Below the pieces are notes generated by a model that saw only the letters and a program-made list of their open reading frames with translations, had not been told where the DNA came from and ran no database searches. 36,048 nucleotides of DNA, from NCBI GenBank assembly GCA_903892635.1, contig CAITJH010000074.1, positions 1 through 36,048 on the forward strand, in the 5' to 3' direction. This stretch comes from an uncultured Actinomycetes bacterium (GTDB lineage Bacteria; Actinomycetota; Actinomycetes; S36-B12; UBA5976). The position numbers and the translations under genes are program-made. Below are positions 22,123 to 27,998 of this stretch, piece by piece; the stretch's first letter is position 1; each line of letters opens with the position of its first letter.

Positions 22123-22279
22123 CAGGCGTTACTCATTTCTTTTTTAGTCAAAGGTCTGGAACATTCACCGGTCCTTGCCGCCTGACAAGGTCTCTAGCCT
22201 TTGAACGCCTAGAGGTATCGTTCCGTTCTCACGCACGCGTAAGAAGCGGGATCGGGTGATTGTTTTGGGAAGTGTCTAT
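22123..22279 (-). promoter_or_regulatory. rpmJ-rpsM leader with two hairpins
   Basis: This is the longest gap inside the infA-to-truA ribosomal run. Two inverted repeats lie close together: CTCTAG (22192-22197) with CTAGAG (22209-22214), and CCTTG (22173-22177) with CAAGG (22186-22190). The weak ribosome site of rpsM follows. A leader for autogenous control or an internal promoter is plausible, but no known ribosomal-leader consensus was recognised. Confidence 0.35.
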
Positions 22280-22393
22280 CTAGCCTTGGCGCTGTTTGTG
22301 GCGTGGGTTTTCACAAATGACCATGACGACACCGTGACGACGAATGACTTTGCACTTGTCGCACATTGGCTTAACTGAGGGGTTAACCTTCAC
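22280..22393 (-). CDS. rpmJ: 50S ribosomal protein L36, zinc-binding form
   Basis: A 37-residue protein starting at GTG 22391-22393: [20 protein letters not shown] and on to the tail RHKQRQG, TAG stop at 22280-22282. The zinc ligands Cys11, Cys14, Cys27 and His32 are all present, so this is the C+ form. The length is exactly that of the family, and the infA-rpmJ-rpsM order is the standard one. It is easily missed because it is very short and starts with GTG. Confidence 0.95.
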
Positions 22394-22409
22394 TTTTTCT
22401 CGTCCTTGA

Positions 22410-22628
22410 TTACTTGTAGCGATAAACGATGCGTCCACGAGTCAGGTCATATGGAGATAACTCCACAATCACCTTGTCGTCAGGAAGAATACGGATGTAG
22501 TGCATACGCATCTTGCCTGAGATATGTGCAAGAACTTTGTGACCGTTCTCTAGCTCTACACGGAACATAGCGTTCGGTAGAGACTCGAGGATGGTGCCTT
22601 CGAGTTCGATGGCGCCGTCTTTTGCCAT
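22410..22628 (-). CDS. infA: Translation initiation factor IF-1
   Basis: A 72-residue OB-fold protein that occupies the ribosomal A site during initiation. It reads [20 protein letters not shown] at the start and [20 protein letters not shown] at the end, both highly conserved. It precedes rpmJ by 16 bases. The 188-base gap upstream (22629-22816) separates it from the foreign-looking island, so it must have its own promoter or read-through from that island. Confidence 0.98.
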
Positions 22629-22652
22629 AAAGTAACTAACACTCCCTAGACA

Positions 22653-22675
22653 CGGCCCAGACTTTTTCTGGACCG
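22653..22675 (-). promoter_or_regulatory. Hairpin in the infA leader
   Basis: Arms CGGCCCAGA (22653-22661) and TCTGGACCG (22667-22675) pair at 8 of 9 positions around a 5-base loop. The hairpin ends 25 bases upstream of the infA ATG. Just beyond it is a 10-base-period direct repeat CCAAAACA (22691-22698, 22701-22708). Either could be a control element for infA now that it is separated from map. Confidence 0.35.
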
Positions 22676-22732
22676 ACTCACGATGTTATGCCAAAACACC
22701 CCAAAACATGAAATCGGCCTAGATCGGTCCCA

Positions 22733-22770
22733 TAGATTACGACCAATTCGGGCACGGCCACTGTAATCTA
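22733..22770. repeat. Perfect 8-bp inverted repeat at the island edge
   Basis: TAGATTAC (22733-22740) and GTAATCTA (22763-22770) are exact inverted copies separated by 22 bases. It lies between the last island gene (stop at 22817) and infA. With no U-run it is a poor intrinsic terminator; a protein-binding site or a recombination remnant is possible. Confidence 0.4.
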
Positions 22771-22816
22771 GGGTTAGTTTGTGCTTCAATTCAACTACAT
22801 GACGACTTTATAGATA

Positions 22817-23284
22817 CTATCCACCAAAAAGCCAACGGTAAAGCGACATTTCTTGACTTCCGGCATGCAACTGAGCCAGCGCCAAGATCGCCAGCCATGG
22901 AGTGGCTACCGCCAGAGTTAAATGTAACCGAGCCACTCCAACCGCCAAAATGTATAGAACCAAAAGTGTGGCCGATACCCGTTCCACAGTAATTTCGGGT
23001 GACAAGATGGAAATTGCAACTGCAGGCAATATTAATAAAACTGCCACAACTGAAGATGCAAGAGCTTTTAGTGACCAAACTTGGCGATTCAACGTTCGCT
23101 CTAGGCATTCGTCACCGTAGGCGAAAAGTAACGCCGAGAATGAGGCAGCCACCGCGGGCATTACGAGCCAAATTAACGGTGTCGAAATAAGGCCCTCCAC
23201 TACTACAAAGGTACCGATAGCCAATTGCACAAATACGCCACCGGCCAATACCTCCCAAAATCGCCATGCCTTAAGTGCCGTCAT
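22817..23284 (-). CDS. Small integral membrane protein, likely second subunit of the ABC system
   Basis: A 155-residue protein with about four hydrophobic segments (residues ~10-30, 33-53, 74-94, 103-140 where two may be close together), few charged residues and no recognised domain. The frame is open upstream to 23338, but ATG 23282-23284 forms an ATGA overlap with the permease stop and is the better start. The tight coupling with the ATPase and permease genes suggests it is part of the same membrane complex. I do not recognise a family. Confidence 0.7.
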   Translation of the reverse strand: MTALKAWRFWEVLAGGVFVQLAIGTFVVVEGLISTPLIWLVMPAVAASFSALLFAYGDECLERTLNRQVWSLKALASSVVAVLLILPAVAISILSPEITVERVSATLLVLYILAVGVARLHLTLAVATPWLAILALAQLHAGSQEMSLYRWLFGG

Positions 23285-24534
23285 GCGCGACTGCCTACGA
23301 TATCCGAGCTGAGTTCGCATCTTGGCATACTTGACCAAATTGATTGCAAAAGCGACTTCACTTCAACATCTGATAGCCCATTGAGATAACTAACTTGCTT
23401 ACTAACTTCGGCAACCGAACTATGCGAGGACATCCGATATTTAGCTTCGGAATCCTCAGAAAACCAAAGGTAAAGCAGATCCAAAACCGAATGCCAATCG
23501 TCTCGGCGTTCTTGAGGTAGTCCTGCAAAGCAAGAACCCGTTTCTTTCCAAAAAGTTGGGTAGACCGAATTGAATATGTTGTAAGGCGTCATAACTTGGT
23601 TATCTACACGGGCCATAGTCACATGTAGTACGCCCTTCGCTTCCACATTTTCAGTTTTGCTATCAATCAGGATTCGACTTGGCGCAAGATGTGCAAGCAA
23701 CTCCTTACGTAGCATTTGATTGATGCCATTCGAAAGATAAGGCAAAGCGTCAACATACGTTGCGGGAACGCAAACATCAACCTCCGCATGCGAACAACGT
23801 AAAGCCACAGCTTCGTTTCCCTTCGCGCCCAGAGGCTGCACGAGGAGAGCAGTGAAGATAAACAATCCGAGAGCGCCGATTTTATAGATTGCACGCCCGC
23901 GCGACCCAATTAAATACATAATCGCAGTTAAGGCTAAATACCAAATTGAAATAGTCAGATATTGCAGCTGTGGGTGCCAACCAAAATCCCAAGTCTTCCA
24001 ATGCGTTGGAAATAGATCTGAACACAAATAGATATCACCAAAATTAATAACAAGAAACTGAATGAAAATAACTATTGGGATTGTGAGAACCCTGCAAAAT
24101 TTATATCCGATCACAAAACTCAAATAACTTATGGGTAACAGGCAAGTGCCCGACAGCAAAAGTTCATCCAAATTGGGCCAACCTACCGCACCACGCAATT
24201 TCAGTGTCACCGTCGCAAGCGATATAAAGACGATGTTTCCAGAAATTACAGCGATTACCGACCAAAAAGCATGACGTAATGCCACATCAGAAACACCTCT
24301 TAGAGTTGTGGGCAAAATAGGCCCAACTGACTCACTCGAGGTGCTGATGCCCGCATTCGTAGATAGCGCAGAAATAACCAAAGACGTAATCACGAATGAA
24401 TGAAGCGGTGCGGAACTAGCTTCGCCCATCAGAGGTAGGTCCTTCGTCCTTTCAGCGAACCAAACCCACAAGGAAGCCAGAGCGGAAACGGTAAACAAAG
24501 TGGCGAAGTTCCATCTCAATACAGAAAGTCTCAC
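23281..24534 (-). CDS. Polytopic ABC-transporter permease-like protein with exported C-terminal domain
   Basis: A 417-residue protein. About seven hydrophobic segments occupy residues ~8-245 (for example HAFWSVIAVISGNIVFISLATVTL and VLTIPIVIFIQFLVINF). These are followed by a soluble ~170-residue region that starts right after the last segment with paired cysteines in RCSHAEVDVCVPATYVDALP and has two further cysteines later. That C-terminal region probably faces outside and could be disulfide-bonded. Actinobacterial ABC permeases with a similar post-membrane C...VCV motif exist, to my recollection. GTG 24532-24534 overlaps the ATPase TGA (GTGA). The partner ATPase, rather than a homology call, is the main evidence for a transporter role. 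Confidence 0.65.
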   Translation of the reverse strand: MRLSVLRWNFATLFTVSALASLWVWFAERTKDLPLMGEASSAPLHSFVITSLVISALSTNAGISTSSESVGPILPTTLRGVSDVALRHAFWSVIAVISGNIVFISLATVTLKLRGAVGWPNLDELLLSGTCLLPISYLSFVIGYKFCRVLTIPIVIFIQFLVINFGDIYLCSDLFPTHWKTWDFGWHPQLQYLTISIWYLALTAIMYLIGSRGRAIYKIGALGLFIFTALLVQPLGAKGNEAVALRCSHAEVDVCVPATYVDALPYLSNGINQMLRKELLAHLAPSRILIDSKTENVEAKGVLHVTMARVDNQVMTPYNIFNSVYPTFWKETGSCFAGLPQERRDDWHSVLDLLYLWFSEDSEAKYRMSSHSSVAEVSKQVSYLNGLSDVEVKSLLQSIWSSMPRCELSSDIVGSRA

Positions 24535-25193
24535 GATAGGAATTCTTTGTTTTTACAGAGGTCTTTTCGAATATCGATCTTTGTAAATTGGAATGATTCG
24601 GCTATAAATCTATTATGCGTTGCCATAAGCACCGTCATTTCTGGATACTTAGATATCTGGTCGAGCAATAGTTGCGTAAAGACATCATCAAAGCCCGTAT
24701 CCGGTTCATCGAGAATCAATAATCTAGGCCCGTTGAGGAATGCTTGAGCAACTAAAACTCTTCGAATAGTTCCTCCGGACAATTTCTTAATCGTCTCATT
24801 ACCAAGTTTTTGCAACTCAAAATCACGTTGAACTTGACTCACGGCAATGTTCGATTCAGCCTTTGATAACTTTTTCAGCCATGCGACATACCTGAGGTAG
24901 TCCACAACCGAGAGATGGGAAAGCACACCACCATGTTGAGGAACGTATCCCAAATACTTGGGCAAGGATCTTCGGTCAACTTCCTGACTCTCAATTGAGT
25001 AGTCAAGATTGCCACCAACCGGCAACTGAGCCGCAGCGATTGTACGCAAAAGAGTGGATTTTCCACATCCGTTACTGCCGACAAACGCTACTTTGCTACC
25101 CGCAGGTAACTCTAAGTCAATCGCTTCGAGGATTGGCGAGCCTCTATAACCGACCGCCAATCCCCGAAGCTCAATTTGCACGCCTATTGGCAC
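24531..25193 (-). CDS. ABC transporter ATP-binding protein
   Basis: A 220-residue ATPase with Walker A GSNGCGKST (residues 39-47), Q-loop in GYVPQHG, signature LSGGT (138-142), Walker B LLILDEPDTGFDD (158-170) and the H-loop in MATHN. It is a stand-alone nucleotide-binding subunit that would energise the permease encoded immediately downstream. It starts at GTG 25191-25193, overlapping the end of the secreted-protein gene by 10 bases; AAGG about 11 bases upstream supports this over a second GTG at 25179-25181. The signature residue after LSGG is Thr, slightly unusual but seen in peptide/immunity-type transporters. Substrate unknown; the neighbouring secreted protein is the obvious candidate. 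Confidence 0.9.
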   Translation of the reverse strand: MPIGVQIELRGLAVGYRGSPILEAIDLELPAGSKVAFVGSNGCGKSTLLRTIAAAQLPVGGNLDYSIESQEVDRRSLPKYLGYVPQHGGVLSHLSVVDYLRYVAWLKKLSKAESNIAVSQVQRDFELQKLGNETIKKLSGGTIRRVLVAQAFLNGPRLLILDEPDTGFDDVFTQLLLDQISKYPEMTVLMATHNRFIAESFQFTKIDIRKDLCKNKEFLS

Positions 25194-25594
25194 TTGAGGT
25201 CGACCTTGCCAGATGAAGTCGCACCACCATTTGATGCTGCCGCAACTGTTTTGTAGCCATACTTCACCCCAGGGGCATCACAGCGACTTGCATACGCATG
25301 GAAGTTGTCCGCCGAATTTTGGGTGTAGTCATAAGCAGAAACCATGACCAAATCCGGAAGTAGCGTCCTCACTTTAACCAAAGAGGCCTTAACCCAACCG
25401 CCAGTGTAAGTCCCAGAGCAATAGAGCCATGTATGTGCAGTGATGTATTCCGAAATTCCAGGATTATCTATGTATGGAAGTTCAGCGCCTATAGACGTAC
25501 ATGAGTACCCAGCTGCCTGCGATGACGATGCCACACTTACGTTTAGGCTCAGGAAAGCAACAAGTGCTGCGGCCGTCGCTAATATTTTCTTCAT
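25184..25594 (-). CDS. Small secreted four-cysteine protein (bacteriocin- or signal-like), unknown family
   Basis: A 136-residue protein with a clear Sec signal: MKK, hydrophobic core to about residue 22, and cleavage likely after SQA at residue 27. The mature ~109 residues contain four cysteines (32, 59, 105, 135), enough for two disulfides, with the last one residue from the C terminus. The mature chain is rich in Gly, Ser, Tyr and Ala. A perfect AAGGAGGT ribosome site sits 4 bases before the ATG, so expression may be strong when induced. It is the first gene of a four-gene overlap-linked operon with ATPase, permease and small membrane protein. The arrangement resembles secreted bacteriocin plus ABC immunity modules, but I do not recognise the family and the function is inferred only. 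Confidence 0.75.
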   Translation of the reverse strand: MKKILATAAALVAFLSLNVSVASSSQAAGYSCTSIGAELPYIDNPGISEYITAHTWLYCSGTYTGGWVKASLVKVRTLLPDLVMVSAYDYTQNSADNFHAYASRCDAPGVKYGYKTVAAASNGGATSSGKVDLKCQ

Positions 25595-25620
25595 AAAACC
25601 TCCTTGGTTTTATTGTTGTC

Positions 25621-25648
25621 AATCTACATCGTTACACATTTCTTACAA
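25621..25648 (-). promoter_or_regulatory. Candidate promoter of the secreted-protein operon
   Basis: Minus-strand -35 TTGTAA (25648-25643), a 16-base spacer, and -10 TAGATT (25626-25621), each 4 of 6 to consensus. The -35 box is part of the first TTTCTTACAA repeat, the arrangement expected if an activator bound at the repeats contacts RNA polymerase. Confidence 0.4.
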
Positions 25649-25677
25649 TAATCAGGCATTTCAGACAATTTCTTACT
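25638..25677. repeat. Phased ATTTC(TT)AC direct repeats, candidate regulator sites
   Basis: ATTTCTTAC begins at 25638 and 25668, exactly 30 bases apart, and a partial copy ATTTCAGAC begins at 25658, so the copies fall on 10-base steps and the same DNA face. The core TTTCTTACAA also occurs at 27179-27188, directly beside the start codon of the XRE-type regulator. Confidence 0.5.
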
Positions 25678-25903
25678 TTGATACCACAAAGCCGATTTCG
25701 GCGAGAATCACTTCGGAAATATCGACGTTAACGGCAAGCATTTTCTAACTTAGGCATCGAAGAGTTTCACATCCGAGCAAGAAACTCAGCCGGTGAAATC
25801 GAAACCCTCGCCTGGTGTAACTAAAAATAGACTTAAATATGCCGCGGGAAAGTCAAATACTTTCATTGGCGATCGTGCTTAAAAACCGAATTCGCAATCG
25901 CGT

Positions 25904-27178
25904 TTATCTACTTATTGTCATCGAATAACCCAGAGCTGCTTCGTAGAATTCAATCGACTCTTTCTCCAACCCCTCCTGCGCAAGTATCCTTGCGGCGTAA
26001 TGCAGAAATTTTGGAATTTCAACACTGCCATGGCCTCGAGACCTCACTAACAGGTCCTTGGCGTTTAAGAGAATTGAGATGTCATTTGAAATATGAAACT
26101 TTGCTTTAGTTTCCAAGATACTTAACTCAATAAACGCGCCCGAAGTAGTCTTTCCCAGAAGCCTTAGCCCTTCAGCAGAAATATCAAGTGCTGAATCGAA
26201 GTTCTCCCCCTTTAACGCAATTTCAGCGCGAGCCACACATGCAGAAGCGGCGTCAATTGGTTTACCCATCGCTAAAGCTTCGATAAAGGCAGTTTCCGCC
26301 AACTCCTCGGCATCTAGTTCAGCGACCGACCCCGCGACTTCGACACCCATATTTGCCAATGCCGCACGCATTCGAGGTAGCGACTCTATGAGTTCAGCAG
26401 CTTCAGCCCAATTGATGGCTTGTTGCATATATGTGAAAGCTCTACCGGCATCTCCGCTTTCTTGAGCGATTCCCGCTTGATTCCAAAGCACTTGAGAAAG
26501 TGACAGAGGAGAACTAAGCCCTGCAGCCATCTCTTTCGCGCGTATTGTTAAACGACTGGCCATGCTGAGTCCGCCGATTTGGATGTAACAAGATGCCAAT
26601 TGACAAAGCAAAGAAATTTGGTCCGTCAACAACCAGGAATTGAATTCTTTCGAGCGAATTGCAATCTCACCTTTTACCGCTCCAGTCGCTGCATCATTAA
26701 CAGAGTAGTAGCAGCGAATTAAATCAAGCCAAATTTCTGGTTCTAGCTTTTCACCCGCTACAAAATTAGTTGAAGTGAGGTTTTCGAGGATCTCTATCGC
26801 TTCAGCAATTTGATTAAGTCCGTAGGCGCACTTAGCGTTCAAATGAACTGCCTGTATTTGAATGCTTTTCGAAATCGAATCTTGCGACAAAATTTTGATA
26901 ATCGATGCTCGCGCTTGGTCATACTCTCCAAGATGAATCGCAACTTTTGCTGAATTTAGTAACTCGAACATTTCAGAGTCAGGCAACTGATTTTGCAACT
27001 GATCTAGACCGACGGAAAAACGTTCAGCGAATGCCTCCAGCATATCTAAGGTTGGCGTTCTTGATCCAGACTCAACTAAAGAGATATAGCTCGAAGCACA
27101 GATGCCTTCCGCCGCTTGACTTTGAGTCAATCCCGCCAAAAGACGGGCACTTTTAAAGCGTTTCGCAAATTCTTCCAT
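25904..27178 (-). CDS. XRE-family regulator with TPR-like helical repeats (RRNPP-like)
   Basis: A 424-residue cytoplasmic regulator. Residues ~4-60 form an XRE helix-turn-helix (KRFKSARLLAGLTQSQAAE, then SYISLVESGSRTPTLDMLEA). Residues ~70-424 are a run of helix pairs with TPR-like spacing (for example LLNSAKVAIHLGEYDQARASI and AEIALKGENFDSALDISAEGLRL). This architecture is that of RRNPP regulators (PlcR, NprR, Rgg, PrgX), whose helical repeats bind a short imported peptide. The frame is open to 27364, but ATG 27178 begins exactly at the HTH and avoids overlapping the divergent 42-codon ORF. The Shine-Dalgarno is weak (TAAGAAA). No ligand-specific residue can be identified by eye, so peptide binding is inference. 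Confidence 0.82.
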   Translation of the reverse strand: MEEFAKRFKSARLLAGLTQSQAAEGICASSYISLVESGSRTPTLDMLEAFAERFSVGLDQLQNQLPDSEMFELLNSAKVAIHLGEYDQARASIIKILSQDSISKSIQIQAVHLNAKCAYGLNQIAEAIEILENLTSTNFVAGEKLEPEIWLDLIRCYYSVNDAATGAVKGEIAIRSKEFNSWLLTDQISLLCQLASCYIQIGGLSMASRLTIRAKEMAAGLSSPLSLSQVLWNQAGIAQESGDAGRAFTYMQQAINWAEAAELIESLPRMRAALANMGVEVAGSVAELDAEELAETAFIEALAMGKPIDAASACVARAEIALKGENFDSALDISAEGLRLLGKTTSGAFIELSILETKAKFHISNDISILLNAKDLLVRSRGHGSVEIPKFLHYAARILAQEGLEKESIEFYEAALGYSMTISR

Positions 27179-27245
27179 TTTCTTACAAACTACCTTACTG
27201 CCTGTAAATATATATTGTAAATTATGGATAACTGGAAGGAAACCC
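27179..27245. promoter_or_regulatory. 67-base divergent promoter region between regulator and 42-codon ORF
   Basis: AT-rich. It contains direct repeats TGTAAAT at 27203-27209 and 27216-27222 (13 bases apart), an inverted pair TTACAA (27183-27188) and TTGTAA (27215-27220), and the TTTCTTACAA core at 27179-27188 shared with the secreted-protein promoter. A plus-strand promoter TTACTG (27195-27200), 17-base spacer, TAAATT (27218-27223) is possible. The layout fits a regulator controlling its own gene and the divergent peptide ORF. Confidence 0.45.
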
Positions 27246-27374
27246 ATGAAAAGAATACTCGCTATCTTGCTAGCAACAGTGCCCGGAACAAATTCAGTTG
27301 GTATTTCATTTAGTTCGACAGCAAATAGCTGGAGACTTGCTTCAAACCCCAACCCAAGCTTCACTATCTGCTAG
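27246..27374 (+). CDS. Candidate 42-residue secreted pre-peptide, divergent from the XRE-TPR regulator
   Basis: ATG 27246 to TAG 27374. GGAAGGA ends five bases before the ATG, one of the best ribosome sites in the island. The protein begins MKRILAILLATV: two basic residues then a hydrophobic run, followed by a Ser/Asn-rich segment (possible cleavage near SSTANS) and a C terminus PNPSFTIC. In RRNPP systems the cognate signal is such a short pre-peptide, encoded beside the regulator, exported by Sec, trimmed and re-imported. It also resembles the start of the nearby secreted protein (MKKILA, similar Ser-rich stretch), so a decayed paralogue is the alternative. It is only 42 codons long and unsupported by homology. 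Confidence 0.45.
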   Translation: MKRILAILLATVPGTNSVGISFSSTANSWRLASNPNPSFTIC

Positions 27375-27382
27375 TTTCCGCT

Positions 27383-27967
27383 ATGCATAACGCGAAGAAA
27401 ATCATCTCAGCGGTTGTGTTCGCGCTACTAATCGCGAGCACAACCTCTGGCTGCGGAAAAACGAAGCCTAAAATTTTAGAAACGCCATTCGTTGATCAGT
27501 CTGTATACGAAATGGCCTACGGACTGGGATTCACGATTGCTTATAAACCTTCCTTGGATCCTCAATCCAGTGATGGTCTCATAAAGTACCCAAACATCGA
27601 AGTGGTTGCCTTTCGAGCTGGTGACTACATGGTGCCCAGCAATCAGCTGTGCGCTCCAAATAACTCTGTGTCCACACATCATTTAAATAGTGCATGTGCT
27701 CCAATTAATGGCCGAAAAGACCAACTTCACATTTGGACGATTCCAAAGAATCAAAAAACTTTCTCTATTTCATTGTTACAAGATGACAGCATCGTTGACG
27801 CCTACATTTTGGAACTACCTGACAATGTTCCATGTAACTTTGCGATGTGGTACGGGCCTCAACCATTTCTAAATGACCCCATTCCATCGGATACATCTGA
27901 TGCCTCACTGACGGATACGCCTGATTCCACTCCACATGTAAACACGAAACTCCCAACAACTTGGTAG
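27383..27967 (+). CDS. Probable lipoprotein of unknown function
   Basis: A 194-residue protein with an N-terminal export signal (MHNAKKIISAVVFALLIAST) and a lipobox-like TSGC at Cys24, predicting a membrane-anchored lipoprotein. Three more cysteines follow in NQLCAPNN, NSACAPIN and NVPCNFAMW. The last ~30 residues are Pro/Asp/Ser/Thr-rich and disordered-looking. No family is recognised. It starts eight bases after the stop of the 42-codon ORF and lacks a clear Shine-Dalgarno, so its translation is probably coupled to that ORF. In the context of a peptide system it could be a surface receptor, binding protein or immunity factor; this is speculation from position. Confidence 0.7.
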   Translation: MHNAKKIISAVVFALLIASTTSGCGKTKPKILETPFVDQSVYEMAYGLGFTIAYKPSLDPQSSDGLIKYPNIEVVAFRAGDYMVPSNQLCAPNNSVSTHHLNSACAPINGRKDQLHIWTIPKNQKTFSISLLQDDSIVDAYILELPDNVPCNFAMWYGPQPFLNDPIPSDTSDASLTDTPDSTPHVNTKLPTTW

Positions 27968-27998
27968 TCCGTCTGTACGTACATCAAGTGAGAGTGTT

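Follow-up and report, generated by a model that had tools for sequence, protein, structure and literature searches.

Remnant of a small pre-peptide gene beside a PlcR-like regulator and a candidate Cys-Cys peptide signalling system in Actinomycetia

Results

A PlcR-like regulator and a divergent small ORF

The DNA analysed here (the window) is a 36,048-nucleotide stretch from an uncultured bacterium of the Actinomycetes (contig CAITJH010000074.1, positions 1 to 36,048). Its minus strand encodes, at positions 25904 to 27178, an XRE-TPR regulator of 424 amino acids that reads from an ATG at 27178 down to 25904; homologue fit, Pfam, a PlcR profile match and the regulator tree all bear on this assignment. 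We rejected an alternative GTG start at 27364 (486 aa), which would cross the neighbouring small ORF, since the homologues fit the ATG at 27178. Pfam places the helix-turn-helix model HTH_3 on residues 9-61 (E 6e-9); among the TPR models TPR_8 passes its cut-off and others match more weakly. In a profile search PlcR is the top natural full-architecture match in the PDB (E 5e-14, residues 5-186); a search with the single sequence matched the helix-turn-helix alone. The sequence profile supports the PlcR-type layout that the sequence-only reading had proposed for this protein, an XRE helix-turn-helix followed by TPRs. The length of the regulator also falls within the 250-500 aa range of RRNPP receptors, which combine a DNA-binding helix-turn-helix with TPRs. 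Its AlphaFold2 model, built from an alignment of two sequences, those of the window and of its closest relative, was set aside for its pLDDT of 52, and no peptide groove was read from it. The TPR region resembles weakly the NsdA-family TPR regulators of Streptomyces (NF053720, E 0.004); the score lies far below the curated cut-off, and the protein does not belong to that family.

The window, one contig of a genome of 1.68 Mb, has a single near-identical relative, the Candidatus Nanopelagicales assembly FCJ.28. The corresponding locus of FCJ.28 (G008:C173, hereafter L008) carries a regulator 97% identical to that of the window.

Divergent from the regulator, with 67 bases between the two start codons, lies a plus-strand ORF of 42 codons (27246-27374). 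It is preceded by a Shine-Dalgarno sequence, GGAAGGA (27234-27240), identical in L008, and its product begins with MKR followed by a hydrophobic stretch. The sequence-only reading described these features accurately and took the ORF for the pre-peptide of an RRNPP-type pair, with its C-terminal residues as the predicted signal.

The 42-codon ORF is a fusion of two genes

Alignment to L008 leads to a different identification of the 42-codon ORF, namely a chimeric remnant. The intact counterpart in L008 (4430-4552) is an ORF of 40 amino acids, MKRLLAILLATALAGALTSPANAATNLISPVTYGHGHTCC, that ends in ...GHGHTCC. Codons 1-11 of the window ORF (27246-27278) match the start of this ORF, ribosome site included, and correspond to the beginning of its signal peptide. 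Codons 12-42 and the stop codon (27279-27374) match the tail of another L008 gene: identity is 84% (E 4e-11) to the 31 C-terminal residues of a secreted protein of 275 aa, here called protein B. About 840 bp of the FCJ.28 sequence is absent from the window. The junction (27274-27294) contains a shared CAACA, and identity to the L008 DNA falls there from 94.5% to 84.6%. Counted in full 200-nt bins, identity is 93-97% over the regulator and 79-94% past the junction; dS relative to L008 is 0.16 for the regulator and 0.76 for map and adk. Because its halves come from different genes and both identity and dS change there, the ORF appears to straddle a recombination or deletion boundary. The reverse event, an insertion in L008 instead of a loss from the window, is much less likely, for it would have had to create a full-length secreted protein with exactly the tail of the ORF.

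The pre-peptide proposed earlier thus reduces to a truncated signal peptide joined to the tail of protein B. It retains, formally, the size (10-100 aa), position and ribosome site of a small adjacent propeptide, yet it is a fusion. Compared with L008 the Sec signal peptide has a shortened core, cut after 11 codons, and has lost its AxA site. A match to the Phr_nterm model (E 0.21) was set aside as signal-peptide noise. The C-terminus of the ORF, which as a mature signal would be expected to be conserved as such in relatives, belongs to protein B and, the ORF being a fusion, would not be a signal. Conservation with a synonymous bias had been put forward as a check on the ORF. The bias does exist (11 synonymous codon differences to one nonsynonymous over codons 17-42 against L008), but it is misleading, because selection acted on the 275-aa protein and not on a pheromone.

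Operator, lipoprotein gene and insertion hotspot

The divergent intergenic region contains an element of the form TTAC-N8-TTAC-N5-GTAA-N9-GTAA (27183-27220). The same arrangement, with an outer gap of N8, is conserved in the corresponding region of genome G019, where the regulator is just 36% identical, and TTAC-N5-GTAA also occurs upstream of two remote paralogues. It is likely to be an operator, and its placement suggests that the regulator and the divergent genes are under joint control. Downstream in the divergent operon is a gene for a lipoprotein-like protein of 194 aa (27383-27967, plus strand). Close relatives of this lipoprotein and of the regulator at this site are found together in exactly three of the 166 genomes of the order. 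In the map-infA interval of G019 the 36%-identical regulator is divergent from a related lipoprotein, and a peptide ORF was not found between the two; the regulator may therefore work without a peptide.

The map-infA interval as a whole (about 22750-27998 in the window) is a cargo hotspot, which measures about 200 bp when empty. In the relatives compared, seven loci in all, its contents include RelE/Phd-like, histone-deacetylase-like and ion-channel-like genes or acetyltransferases, as judged by eye. Relative to L008 the window has an insertion of about 3 kb (22755-25730) holding an operon for a 136-aa secreted protein, an ABC ATPase and two membrane proteins of 417 and 173 aa that have no Pfam family. 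Its layout resembles that of lactococcin-972-like bacteriocins and their exporters, with no family reaching the cut-off. The insertion ends inside the remnant of a Phd-type antitoxin gene, of which the C-terminal part, GIEEFHIRARNSAGEIETLAWCN and the stop codon, is left at about 25731-25824 (plus strand) and which is intact at L008 5970-6263. On either side of the insertion, positions 22219-22754 and 25731-27282 are 94-98% identical to FCJ.28; neighbouring genes are about 85% identical and other regions 77-79%. This segment was probably exchanged recently.

Related regulators adjoin genes for Cys-Cys-ended pre-peptides

The 40-aa ORF of L008 prompted a scan of the relatives of the regulator. 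A class-wide survey covered 297 genomes, 76 of them with a match, and 90 loci were inspected. Nine of the first 13 regulators were accompanied by a small divergent ORF whose last codons are Cys, Cys and stop (a -CC ORF), and further ones were found beside 25 of 29 and then 11 of 60 regulators in later batches of loci. With every position counted, a small ORF with this ending adjoins 52 of the 101 related XRE-TPR regulators, which come from 50 genomes of nine families and one Streptomyces plasmid for these 52. Conservation of the small ORF beside homologues of the regulator, a check suggested in the sequence-only reading, is thus seen in the form of -CC ORFs of which the window retains a remnant.

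The -CC ORF lies divergently upstream in 45 regulators and downstream in seven. Six of the downstream ORFs are on the opposite strand, next to regulators that have no upstream one, and one is co-directional (Streptomyces sp. Mg1 plasmid pSMg1-1, 71 aa, ...KDIPLCC, WP_008741297.1, paired with M444_RS35900). The divergent ORFs encode 39-49 amino acids and all 45 have an AxA-type signal peptide, a property judged by motif and hydrophobicity that was not among the selection criteria. Most -CC ORFs have a Shine-Dalgarno site. The residues ahead of the Cys pair are variable, an aromatic residue or Met at -3 and Gly or Pro at -5 being common. Beside eight more regulators the signal-peptide ORF ends differently, as with ...GGQWCCDAIPA or, in one clade, ...SPWQWPI, and beside several of the regulators examined a signal-peptide ORF was not found. 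Pfam and NCBIfam hold no family matching the -CC peptides.

Several variants were seen. In a sub-clade of five loci the divergent signal-peptide ORF is kept and ends in ...GWNHPG, ...GPWGYPI or ...PWQWPI; by its sequences, the type of signal has changed here within one clade. One large clade, f23, has a monocistronic peptide gene, and the gene that follows is convergent in most of the f23 loci examined and encodes a protein that by eye resembles HisC or another aminotransferase. At four loci in f23 genomes the regulator is followed, on the opposite strand, by an additional -CC ORF with a signal peptide, which ends in ...TPDGGSDFCC and is possibly a second signal. In a genus with large genomes, two remote XRE-TPR regulators are accompanied by divergent signal-peptide ORFs of 50-65 aa that lack the Cys pair and are possibly a further variant.

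Association and coding selection

Within 500 nt of the close regulators a signal-peptide -CC ORF is found divergently in 36 of 53 cases and on the same strand in none of 53 (Fisher p = 2.5e-15, a value that overstates the evidence because related sequences are not independent). Remote XRE-TPR clades differ from the relatives of the window regulator in lacking such ORFs: within the same distance one was found beside one of 36 remote regulators (p = 1e-10, overstated for the same reason). The -CC ending is spread over many separate clades of the regulator tree. Pooled over nine pairs of close -CC ORFs, pN/pS is 0.47 in frame, compared with 1.03 and 1.68 when the alternative frames are read; an indel put one pair out of alignment, and constraint is slight in a further two. 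Selection in the reading frame supports the view that -CC ORFs are coding.

In the tree, whose deep branches are long and uncertain, the window regulator groups beside relatives that bear -CC ORFs, and we presume it to be the receptor of the peptide of this family, here without an intact partner. TPR domains have many kinds of binding partner. The genome that carries the window encodes OppA-like binding proteins, and a search for a second intact -CC peptide gene of the L008 type elsewhere in this genome did not find one (best E 0.3). The regulator therefore looks like an orphan receptor. Among the viral contigs searched there was no close relative of the regulator; one phage record contains a regulator-like protein, 24% identical, beside which a signal-peptide ORF was not found.

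Discussion

A candidate peptide-signalling cassette

The locus is, we think, probably a degraded copy of an actinobacterial cassette in which a Sec-exported -CC peptide is sensed by a PlcR-like regulator. Somewhat more guardedly, we lean towards the existence in Actinomycetia of a widespread class of pheromones with intracellular receptors, made from Sec-exported precursors of 40-50 aa with C-terminal Cys-Cys and read by adjacent PlcR-like XRE-TPR receptors, a class in which the window lineage has lost the pheromone and kept the receptor.

The mechanism we propose draws on the analogy to PlcR-PapR. In an intact cassette the XRE-TPR regulator would adjoin, usually divergently, the gene for a -CC pre-peptide of 39-49 aa. 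This pre-peptide would be exported by Sec, cleaved at the AxA site and possibly trimmed, and the resulting -CC peptide of 6-19 residues would re-enter the cell through the oligopeptide permease (Opp). Binding of its -CC end to the TPR domain would then alter what the regulator does at the promoter region shared with the divergent gene. In the window lineage, recombination or deletion would have joined 11 codons of the pre-peptide gene to the tail of the downstream secreted-protein gene, leaving the regulator, the operator and the downstream lipoprotein in place.

Other readings of the window and of the family

Two other readings concern the window itself. That the 42-codon ORF encodes a functional pheromone precursor whose C-terminal signal is new, as the sequence-only reading proposed, is very unlikely: its start codon, ribosome site and promoter are those of the pre-peptide gene of the family, it still ends in Cys and the changes in its tail are almost purely synonymous, but the core of the signal peptide is cut, the AxA site and the Cys-Cys end are gone and the conservation of the 31 C-terminal residues is explained by their being the tail of another protein. 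The junction might instead be an artefact of metagenome assembly, the living cell having an intact pre-peptide gene. L008 does come from a metagenome assembly, the window genome is fragmented into 92 contigs and a CAACA repeat coincides with the step in identity; the gene order of the ribosomal-protein operon is nevertheless kept on both sides, as is the register of the map gene and the lipoprotein gene, and we consider an artefact improbable.

For the family, a reading with a real if minor chance is that the -CC peptides are secreted end products, for instance small toxins or peptides that bind metals or thiols, which the regulator controls while sensing something else. The conserved Cys pair could serve as a metal ligand or be joined in a disulphide, and a role as secreted effector is possible because at two loci, L008 and L012, a gene for another secreted protein comes after the peptide gene. 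Against this, the peptide ORF is common beside this clade of regulators and rare beside other XRE-TPRs, the peptide is the sole gene of its unit in one large clade, and the Cys pair is fixed while the preceding residues vary, as in pheromones matched to their receptors. Alternatively the -CC ORFs could be cysteine-responsive leader peptides. Short actinobacterial ORFs with consecutive Cys codons have a precedent in the polycysteine ORFs of mycobacteria, which, according to what PMC9094748 cites from Canestrari et al. 2020, are leaderless, cysteine-responsive attenuators upstream of operon genes. Such attenuators lie upstream in an operon with the gene they regulate and have no signal peptide. 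The -CC ORFs do not fit this pattern: they have just two Cys codons each, a signal peptide with AxA in all 45 divergent cases and mostly a ribosome site, and they can be monocistronic, with nothing downstream to attenuate in most f23 loci examined because the next gene is convergent. The chance that they are attenuators is accordingly slim, and a peptide signal remains our preferred reading.

Relation to known systems

RRNPP_detector defines such receptor-propeptide pairs by five criteria and was applied to Firmicutes and viruses (PMC10075063); signalling in actinobacteria is described as based mainly on small molecules or on modified or cyclic peptides (PMC10075063, PMC4748050). The relatives of the window regulator display all five of these features, with secretion judged by motif. 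As in PlcR, NprR, Rgg and ComR of Firmicutes, an XRE helix-turn-helix is followed by TPRs, and a small Sec-type propeptide gene is adjacent. They differ from that set in belonging to Actinomycetia, in having peptides that mostly end in Cys-Cys and in a peptide gene that is usually divergent but may also lie downstream on the opposite strand, and in the window that gene is broken. By genomic signature the -CC system resembles RRNPP systems in its working and is a candidate member. The actinobacterial pair claimed in the sequence-only reading thus holds for the family, where Sec-type -CC pre-peptides adjoin related regulators, and fails for the copy in the window.

In the ComR-ComS (XIP) system of streptococci, a short peptide with a conserved C-terminal double tryptophan is read by an XRE-TPR regulator. 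The -CC peptides may be comparable, but the pair of residues is Cys-Cys here, the phylum is another one, and competence genes were not seen near the window locus.

Conclusions

We did not find a description of the -CC peptide family in the open-access literature, and the signalling system proposed here is apparently both widespread and undescribed. The 42-codon ORF was convincing when viewed alone, yet it is the remnant of a fusion; small-ORF calls beside such regulators need comparison with relatives. If the proposal is true, the pair can be recognised by a simple rule, a signal peptide and a Cys-Cys-stop ending beside an XRE-TPR gene. It would then extend over at least nine families and a Streptomyces plasmid, and peptide quorum sensing in actinobacteria would become directly testable with synthetic peptides.
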